Assembly (NCBI GenBank): GCA_002816715.1
Contig: MUCJ01000060.1
Location: 1 to 44,556 of the forward strand
Reading direction: 5' to 3'
Source of the DNA: SAR202 cluster bacterium Casp-Chloro-G3
GTDB taxonomy: Bacteria; Chloroflexota; Dehalococcoidia; Lucifugimonadales; UBA3495
DNA: 44,556 nt
Under the pieces are notes generated by a model. It searched no databases. It was not told the origin of the DNA and saw nothing but the letters and a program-made list of their open reading frames with translations. Numbering within the stretch: the first letter of the stretch is position 1; every line of letters begins with the position of its first letter. Positions 28,593-30,735 of the stretch are shown piece after piece. Both the position numbers and the translations under genes were made by a program.

Positions 28593-28622
28593 TTGACTCC
28601 CCAACTTGCCCCCGAATATAAT
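28593..28622 (+). promoter_or_regulatory. Promoter for the ComDE-like operon
   Basis: TTGACT (28593-28598), 18-bp spacer, perfect TATAAT (28617-28622), 57 bp before the first ATG. The -35 region lies in an imperfect 12-bp repeat (TTGACCCTCAAG, TTGACTCCCCAA). Confidence 0.75.
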
Positions 28623-28678: not shown

Positions 28679-29188
28679 ATGACCACCCATGAAGCGGTGC
28701 TGCACCCGCCAGCGCTGATAAACGAGCTGAAAAAAAACAACATAACCCACATTGTCTGGCTGCCAGACAGCGAGACTAACTTCATGTACCAGATGCTCAT
28801 GGCCGAGCCGTCCATTGACCTGGTGCCGGTCTGCCGTGAGGGTGAGACCATGGCCATCGCCGCCGGTCTCTGGGTGGGCGGCAAAAAGCCGGTGGTGCTG
28901 ATTCAGAACACCGGCATCTTCGAGTCTGGAGACTCCATCCGTGGCTTGGGCCTGGACATCAACCAGCCTCTGGTCATGCTGATCGGCTATCGTGGTTGGA
29001 CCCGGCGCGGGGCTACTCCCGACTCGGCGGCCCAATTTATCGAGCACATACTGCACGCCTGGAACCTCAACTACTATTTGATCGAATCCGACGCCGACGC
29101 CGACCGCATCGGCCTCGCCATTGCAGAAGCCGATCGGACTCAAAGGCCGGTGGGTGTGCTCATTGGCGCTGAATTCGGGTCCGAGTAA
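28679..29188 (+). CDS. ComD-like thiamine diphosphate enzyme, PYR-domain subunit
   Basis: A 169-residue protein matching the alpha subunit of sulfopyruvate decarboxylase (ComD) and the N-terminal domain of phosphonopyruvate decarboxylases. The cofactor-activating glutamate is in CREGETMAIAAG (Glu54), and LIQNTGIFESGDSI and GYRGWTRRGATPDSA are family-like. It would pair with the following PP-domain gene to decarboxylate a 3-substituted pyruvate. In archaea ComDE serves coenzyme M; here a catabolic sulfopyruvate/phosphonopyruvate-type or another 2-oxo acid role is more likely. ATG at 28679 has AAGGAG 6 bp upstream. The next gene starts 18 bp after its stop. Confidence 0.88.
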   Translation: MTTHEAVLHPPALINELKKNNITHIVWLPDSETNFMYQMLMAEPSIDLVPVCREGETMAIAAGLWVGGKKPVVLIQNTGIFESGDSIRGLGLDINQPLVMLIGYRGWTRRGATPDSAAQFIEHILHAWNLNYYLIESDADADRIGLAIAEADRTQRPVGVLIGAEFGSE

Positions 29189-29206: not shown

Positions 29207-29797
29207 ATGATTAAAAACCAAGACGCTGTGCGAGTAATCGACAGCAAGCGCAACGGCGCATTATTTGTGCCCACCATGAACGCCAACAACGTCCATTTTG
29301 GCCTGCCCACGGTCACCACCGACCAGAAACACGACCTGCCGGTTTCGGGAGCTATGGGCAAGGCTTCATCTCTGGCGTTGGGTCTGGCCCTGGCTCAACC
29401 CGACAAGAAGGTGTTCTGCCTGGACGGCGACGGCAGCCTGCTGATGAATCTGGGGGCCCTGGTTACTATGTCCAACAAAGCGCCCAAGAACCTGTACCAT
29501 TTCCTGTTCAACAACGGCGTTTATGCGGTAACCGGCGGTCAGCCAATCCCCGGGTCGGGTCAGACCGACTGGGAAAACATGGCCAAAGCTGCTGGTTACG
29601 CCTCGGTGTTCTCCTTCGATAACCTGGAAGACCTGACCACCAGCATGGATGAAGTGCTGGCATCGGTCGGGCCGGTGTTTATCCACCTGGAAGTCGAGCC
29701 GGAGGTTGAGAACACGCCGGTGCAGTTCCGCACACGGCCCAGCCGCACGGTGCAACAGGCTTTCCGAGAATTGCCGGAGACCTTGGGCGTGCGATAG
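29207..29797 (+). CDS. ComE-like thiamine diphosphate enzyme, PP-domain subunit
   Basis: A 196-residue protein matching the beta subunit of sulfopyruvate decarboxylase. The thiamine-diphosphate motif is complete: GDGS at residues 74-77 and Asn102-Asn103, 25 residues apart (GDG...NNGVY), giving the Mg2+ and diphosphate ligands. The preceding LPVSGAMGKASSLALGLALA is the family's substrate-side helix. ATG at 29207 has AAGGAG 8 bp upstream. It is cotranscribed with the ComD-like gene and is followed by a strong terminator at 29839-29878. The exact 2-oxo acid is not predictable. Confidence 0.9.
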   Translation: MIKNQDAVRVIDSKRNGALFVPTMNANNVHFGLPTVTTDQKHDLPVSGAMGKASSLALGLALAQPDKKVFCLDGDGSLLMNLGALVTMSNKAPKNLYHFLFNNGVYAVTGGQPIPGSGQTDWENMAKAAGYASVFSFDNLEDLTTSMDEVLASVGPVFIHLEVEPEVENTPVQFRTRPSRTVQQAFRELPETLGVR

Positions 29798-29838: not shown

Positions 29839-29878
29839 AACCGGGACGACAGCTTGATTGTCGTCCCGGTTACTTTTA
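29839..29878 (+). terminator. Strong intrinsic terminator after the ComDE-like pair
   Basis: A 13-bp perfect stem (AACCGGGACGACA with TGTCGTCCCGGTT) closes a 7-nt loop and is followed by ACTTTTA. The T-run is short but the stem is very stable. Confidence 0.8.
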
Positions 29879-29909
29879 TAGTTAACTTGATGTGTATAGG
29901 GCTTTGCCA

Positions 29910-30191
29910 GTGCTGAAAGACTTGGGTAAGGGCCTGTTGGCCCGATCGCTGGCTTACGCTGTGTTCGGACTGGGATTCTGGCTGCTGTTTCAAGGGTTCC
30001 TGAAGCCCAGCGTAGTGCTGGGAATATTGGGCGGTGCGATGATTCCGTTCGGCATGTACTTGATAGTCAAAGCCAGGCGCGCATCAATTTTACCGCCAGA
30101 CCTCACACCCGAAGATAACCAGGAGCCAGAAAATATGACGGAGGAAGACTCTATTGATCCCACCCCTGATCCCATCGATAGAAGCCGCTAA
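29910..30191 (+). CDS. Small two-helix membrane protein
   Basis: A 93-residue protein (start GTG at 29910; GTG at 29892 would add six residues) with two hydrophobic segments, LAYAVFGLGFWLLFQGF and VVLGILGGAMIPFGMYLIV, then a basic stretch KARRAS and an acidic, proline-rich cytoplasmic-type tail. I do not recognise a family. Its last 38 bases overlap the next gene, and the next gene's ribosome-binding site (GGAGG) lies inside its tail, so the two are translationally coupled. This ties it to the degenerate ComE paralogue. Start evidence is modest. Confidence 0.6.
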   Translation: MLKDLGKGLLARSLAYAVFGLGFWLLFQGFLKPSVVLGILGGAMIPFGMYLIVKARRASILPPDLTPEDNQEPENMTEEDSIDPTPDPIDRSR

Positions 30192-30735
30192 GGCCATTGA
30201 TTTCCACCGGAAGGATGCCCTGGTGGTGGCTACCTCGTCGGCTCTTCGGGACTGGAATCAAGTGTCCAAACGTCGCGATTTAGACATTGACCTGACCGAT
30301 TGTATGGACCGCGCCCCGGCGGTGGGTCTAGGTCTCTGCCTTGCCCGCCCCGACCGGAAAGTGCTGGTCTTGGACTGCGACGCTACCCTGCGCACCGACC
30401 TGGCTGGTCTGGCGACCATCGGCGAGTCCAAACCGGAGAACTTCGTTCATTTTGTCTTTGAAGATGCCGCCTTCACCTCGACTGATGGAATCCCAATCCG
30501 CGGCATGGATAACCTGGATTTCGCGGCAATCGCCCGGGCTTCCGGCTACGCCCAGACCTACGAGTTCGATAGTTTGGAAGACCTTCTCATCGGCCTGGAA
30601 GAAGTAATGGTGCAGACTGGGCCCACCTTTGTGGTAATCAAGGTGCTGCGCGATGATAATCCGCATCCCTTCCCAGAGCGGAGCATGGCTGAAGGCTGGG
30701 CCGAAGTGCGGGAGACCCTCTCCGCCGAGCTTTAG
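30154..30735 (+). CDS. ComE paralogue with degenerate thiamine diphosphate motif
   Basis: A 193-residue protein that aligns with the ComE-like protein at 29207 over the cofactor region with no gap. The motif has decayed: GDGS is CDAT (residues 75-78) and the Asn-Asn pair is Glu103-Asp104 (FEDAAF), 25 residues apart as before. Mg2+ and diphosphate binding are therefore unlikely. The fold-defining surroundings (VLVLD, NFVHFVF, AAIARASGYAQTYEFDSLED) remain. The start is TTG at 30154 with GGAGG at 30140-30144, inside the preceding membrane-protein gene. It may be a regulatory or structural pseudoenzyme; no stop or frameshift suggests a dead gene. Confidence 0.82.
   Translation: MIPPLIPSIEAAKAIDFHRKDALVVATSSALRDWNQVSKRRDLDIDLTDCMDRAPAVGLGLCLARPDRKVLVLDCDATLRTDLAGLATIGESKPENFVHFVFEDAAFTSTDGIPIRGMDNLDFAAIARASGYAQTYEFDSLEDLLIGLEEVMVQTGPTFVVIKVLRDDNPHPFPERSMAEGWAEVRETLSAEL

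Follow-up and report, generated by a model that had tools for sequence, protein, structure and literature searches.

A ComE-like protein lacking the ThDP motif, conserved with a small membrane protein in SAR202 bacteria, is a predicted maintained pseudo-subunit

Introduction

The known two-subunit thiamine diphosphate (ThDP) decarboxylases include the phosphonopyruvate decarboxylase RhiEF (PDB 9IZ3/9IZ4) and the sulfopyruvate decarboxylase ComDE (PMC12141560), in which the PYR and PP domains reside in separate subunits. Such enzymes are termed rare in the report on the quinoxaline decarboxylase LumK/LumL (PMC12746152), and AzcB/AzcC (PDB 9U8Q) is of the same two-subunit type. Non-catalytic paralogues of biosynthetic enzymes have been described as well; in plant vitamin B6 synthesis, PDX1.2 is presented as a regulator of this kind (PMC6829848).

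Here we describe a four-gene cassette in a 44,556-nucleotide stretch of DNA (hereafter, the window) from SAR202 cluster bacterium Casp-Chloro-G3, one of the uncultured ocean Chloroflexota of the SAR202 cluster, with the gene order D-E-M-X, where D and E are ComD-like and ComE-like subunits, M is a small membrane protein, and X is a second ComE-like protein. The cassette resembles RhiEF and ComDE in that D and E are separate PYR and PP subunits with canonical motifs and X has the PP fold. However, it adds to this pair a PP subunit devoid of the ThDP motif and a membrane protein, and both D and E score far below the NCBIfam equivalog cut-offs. A pseudo-PP subunit is not noted in the accessible parts of the LumK/LumL and AzcB/AzcC descriptions. 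As a predicted non-catalytic paralogue of an enzyme, X is comparable to PDX1.2; it differs in persisting where the cognate enzyme has been lost and in its link to a membrane protein. Within the partial coverage of our literature search, we found no account of a two-subunit ThDP decarboxylase with a pseudo-PP subunit or of the D-E-M-X cassette, and nothing relevant on sulfopyruvate decarboxylase in SAR202 or on ThDP pseudoenzymes; the SAR202 papers PMC6946804 and PMC10444878 do not mention the cassette.

Results

The gene for X (30154..30735; like the rest of the cassette, on the forward strand) is an intact ORF encoding 193 amino acids, with a TTG start at 30154 and a GGAGGA sequence located 8 nt 5' of the start. 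In a Pfam profile search, X passes the cut-off of TPP_enzyme_C (PF02775; 35.9 vs 21.9 bits), and BLASTP aligns it with the adjoining E at 34% identity (3e-39), in agreement with the original prediction of an undamaged ComE paralogue in this position. The alignment, which had been taken to be ungapped, is so in the core; toward the ends, it contains 8 gap positions. The AF2 model of X (pLDDT 90, pTM 0.89) has as its best structural match the RhiF subunit of RhiEF (9iz3_B; Z 24.1, 1.9 Å, 171 residues), followed by the PP domains of pyruvate oxidase, AHAS, and benzoylformate decarboxylase. The scores of X against the equivalog families are well under the respective cut-offs (65.2 vs 221.5 for TIGR03846 and 89.6 vs 312.5 for TIGR03297). 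By profile and fold, X is a member of the PP-domain family of ThDP enzymes, without the GDG...N motif.

E and X differ in three segments of the cofactor site. In the GDG site (30376..30399), GDGSLLMN of E is replaced by CDATLRTD, and in the site that corresponds to the paired asparagines of E (30460..30465), NN is replaced by ED; the changes LDGDGS to LDCDAT and NN to ED are separated by the identical 25-residue spacing in the two proteins. The third segment, the first cofactor loop (30289..30318), reads DLTDCMDRAP in X against PVSGAMGKAS in E; this change of SGAMGKAS to TDCMDRAP in the loop that precedes the GDG site is as strong as the one in the GDG site itself and was overlooked in the original prediction.

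The state of these segments is the same across X. Among 47 distinct X sequences, D46, D49, C50, D76, R80, and D104 are invariant (47/47), and D52, T78 (43/47), and T81 are nearly so; in the same columns as the six invariant residues, E has P, G, A/C, D, L/V, and N, respectively. None of the 47 X sequences contains GDG: both glycines are gone, and the metal-binding aspartate (D76) is kept. The expectation that the CDAT/ED state is conserved among homologues is thus borne out, and the fixation of the motif in 47 distinct sequences indicates that it did not come about by chance. The two halves of the motif, which had both been read as signs of ThDP motif loss, do not carry the same weight. At the NN site, ED or DD, including the FED form, occurs also in relatives that possess GDGS, and therefore only the GDG half marks the loss; we rejected the NN to ED change as a mark.

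The constraint within X is concentrated around the altered loops: the mean entropy in loops 49-55 and 74-81 is 0.345, compared with approximately 1.1 outside the pocket (permutation p 0.00015). On the substrate side, Y107, G111, and Q113 are fixed or nearly fixed in E and variable in X. Together, these patterns imply that the diphosphate/Mg side of X is constrained in a new state, whereas the substrate side is free. Judged from the sequences, the cofactor site of X has been rewritten under constraint and has not eroded; D49 and D52 would block ThDP, given the known role of the glycines that they replace. Variant binding of ThDP by X, with catalysis in conjunction with D, would be compatible with the retention of D76, the presence of threonine (T78) in place of serine, and the location of D104 at an asparagine position where relatives tolerate aspartate. 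Nevertheless, we consider such binding to be quite improbable because three conserved acidic residues, D46, D49, and D52, take the place of Pro, Gly, and Gly near the diphosphate, both glycines of GDG are missing, and the substrate-side residues of E are not conserved in X.

A promoter-like site (TTGACT-18-TATAAT, 28593..28622; 11/12 matches in a consensus scan) precedes D (28679..29188; PF02776, 27.6 bits; TIGR03845, 80.5 bits), in which the catalytic Glu54 (REGE) is kept, as it is throughout the D proteins. E (29207..29797; PF02775, 73 bits), with the canonical GDGS...NN, has as its closest solved relative RhiF (9iz3_B); GDGS is invariant in 44 E sequences. Like X, E is under the equivalog cut-offs (124.3 against 221.5 for TIGR03846; 130.7 against 312.5 for TIGR03297). 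M (29892..30191, with a GTG start at 29892 or 29910) is a small protein with two hydrophobic, putative membrane helices read from the sequence; it has no clear Pfam family, only weak scattered matches. The M gene is present in all 53 of the 53 X genomes and at every X-bearing locus, and the reading frames of M and X share 4-50 nt in 29 of the 44 loci (with the X start inferred at aligned residue 5, the true start being uncertain in some). An intrinsic terminator-like hairpin (29839..29871) lies between E and M in the window and in some other loci (8/44, in a simple scan); in the deep relatives, E and M are within approximately 40 nt of each other.

The order D-E-M-X is kept in four families (f1, f4, f10, and f15). 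The E clade of the cassette is represented in 50 genomes, all of which have X, and 50 of the 53 X genomes have the matching E. The conserved neighbours of X loci, named by eye from their sequences, are GatA, AsnS, a DtxR-like regulator, and ABC/iron transport genes; these look like housekeeping genes and offer no lead to the substrate of D-E. Several loci deviate from the common layout. In L044, L048, L050, and L051, E and M are separated by ~790-1395 bp of extra DNA, which in several cases contains a shared ORF of ~170 aa. In two small f15 genomes, an M-like gene without X is located directly 3' of gltX (L156:4845-5036, reverse strand; L157:4807-5028, forward strand). In the window, two adjacent genes of the D-glutamate cyclase family (PF14336, PF07286; 30803-31690 and 31717-32511, reverse strand) are convergent to X and have no match at the other X loci.

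We searched for X in 59 relatives and genome contigs, in 250 genomes of the order, and in 400 genomes of the phylum, calling it by a gap in the scores (at least 216 bits vs at most 201 bits). X was found in 53 genomes of a single Chloroflexota order (among the 250 searched). The window's family, with 50 genomes, accounts for 46 of them, and families f4, f10, and f15 together for the other seven; outside the order, no genome of the phylum sample scored at the level of X. X is missing from four genomes of the window's family (G013, G014, G022, and G225), which are 67-85% complete and lack the E of the clade too; in this family, we observed no loss of X with E retained.

In trees built without the motif columns, X forms one clade (SH-aLRT 99; 100/97 in a second tree), and E forms a separate one. 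X is positioned among second-copy PP proteins that are encoded 3' of the first copy in D-E1-E2 or D-E1-E2-E3 arrays (L061, L062, L063, and L103-L106), so an origin of X as a recent duplicate of E is disfavoured, even if a single X+E clade is not rejected (AU p 0.127); neither is a clade that unites all second copies (p 0.34). These phylogenies suggest that the lineage of X goes back to the second-copy branch of a more ancient D-E1-E2 arrangement and not to E. Changes in the cofactor sites of PP copies are found elsewhere in the order as well, as indicated by the second copies of family f30, with partial changes at X's sites (TDG and an aspartate at position 49), and by L067:4534-5136, a highly degenerate second PP copy directly 3' of D-E, which has LQSNES in place of LDGDGS and a very long branch in the tree. 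In L103:2500-5668, L104, and L105, a single ComD-like gene precedes three ComE-like genes in tandem, of which the middle one has TDG and an aspartate at the position of D49 of X. The first-copy ComE-like genes L062:4003-4599, L069:3832-4443, and L076:1434-2039 encode DSEG where DGDG would be expected, which represents another type of altered cofactor site in the order.

In the closest pairs, with those that involve the distant L095 set aside, X has a dN/dS (Nei-Gojobori) of 0.06-0.19. The corresponding values are 0.01-0.22 for E, no more than ~0.12 for D, and 0.09-0.37 for M; by this measure, X is constrained as much as E. We looked for the signature of a decaying duplicate, that is, nearest relatives with the normal motif together with relaxed selection, and did not see it. 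The loss of the GDG glycines is what could be expected of a decaying duplicate of E, but the new motif is fixed, the pocket is constrained, dN/dS is low, and X is one clade in four families, so we reject this reading as having next to no probability. The conserved motif state, the single clade, the purifying selection similar to that on E, and the canonical motifs of D and E agree with the original prediction of a maintained pseudoenzyme beside an active copy. Thus, X is a maintained pseudoenzyme by the evidence of its sequences, with a motif loss conserved in one clade under purifying selection and a predicted non-catalytic status.

Three genomes of one genus (G018, G004, and G029) have undergone natural deletion of the parent enzyme. 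Their syntenic locus consists of GatA, AsnS, a neighbour, M, and X, with D-E gone and DtxR next in two of the three; no D orthologue was found in any of them, and the loss may represent one deletion or two. In G004, a 3' remnant of E, ~73 aa long, retains 53-63% identity to intact E, compared with 76-92% among the intact E proteins in this region. The X proteins of the three genomes share 80-90% identity with their relatives, with dN/dS of 0.03-0.11 where dS is unsaturated, and a promoter-like element resembling that of the cassette remains 5' of M-X. G018 and G004 keep two other ComD-like genes (~208-219 bits); G029, which is 87% complete, has no close ComD (best score 44 bits). Because M-X is intact and constrained after the loss of D-E, X must be more than an accessory of D-E, unless paralogous D-E pairs serve in trans.

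These deletions weigh on how X is to be understood. Were X a regulatory or scaffold subunit dedicated to the D-E enzyme only, the operon, the co-inheritance, the homology to E, and the arrangement in the D-E-X model (see below) would all be accounted for; this possibility seems unlikely, given that M-X persists without D-E in three genomes at the low dN/dS values above and X remained highly similar to its relatives while the E remnant of G004 diverged. In the main rival to the adaptor role, M-X might be an independent module that has ceased to serve the decarboxylase, in which the acidic residues D46, D49, D52, D76, and D104, along with R80, bind a metal or small ligand, and X and M make up a membrane-associated receptor or a new enzyme. 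Selection on M-X after the D-E deletion, the location of the most conserved residues of X in the pocket alongside variable substrate-side positions, and the acidic nature of both Mg-ligand positions are in line with such a module; however, E of the clade never occurs without X, almost all X genomes have the matching E, and the D-E-M-X genes are tightly spaced in the deep relatives. It is conceivable, if less probable than the adaptor role discussed below, that the PP domain of a ThDP enzyme became a ThDP-independent metal or ligand binder paired with a membrane protein, a new module that would outlive its parent decarboxylase. Taking the genomic patterns together, X is a maintained pseudo-subunit whose predicted stable partner is M, and it is likely a subunit of D-E also, though with another role besides.

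In L056, D, E, and X are in one reading frame, and we folded the read-through chain with AF2. The model has low overall confidence (pTM 0.53, with 250 residues under pLDDT 50) and includes a long linker that has no structural meaning. Its alignments with single-chain ThDP enzymes extend from residue ~27, in D, to residues ~713-719, in X, and cover ~315-325 residues at 3.1-3.3 Å in the better fits; these ranges mark just the end points of the alignments, and a second E could fit likewise. The model weakly suggests that X could occupy the PP position relative to D. In that position, X might bind the ComD-like subunit as a regulator or scaffold, as originally proposed, but it cannot be solely a subunit of D-E, as M-X outlives D-E in three genomes.

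Discussion

Our preferred reading, still a tentative one, makes X an ancient non-catalytic subunit of the PP fold, maintained as an M-tethered adaptor on ComD-type PYR subunits that anchors or regulates the decarboxylase. M would tether X to the membrane, as the gene order hints; X, free of ThDP, would sit in a PP position on these PYR subunits; and this docking would anchor or regulate the decarboxylase. The usual client would be the cognate D-E, and M-X would also work without it, either through paralogous ComDE pairs in trans or in a second role. Our confidence in this mechanism as a whole is moderate at most.

Pseudoenzymes are well known; in the case of X, the loss is old and common to one clade, and the dead site is constrained rather than decayed. 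The natural deletions of the parent enzyme constitute a ready-made test of whether a pseudo-subunit has a job of its own, and the retention of X even where the decarboxylase is deleted implies that this job is real. The cassette is nearly universal in one family of SAR202, a group whose role in the organic carbon of the ocean has been studied.
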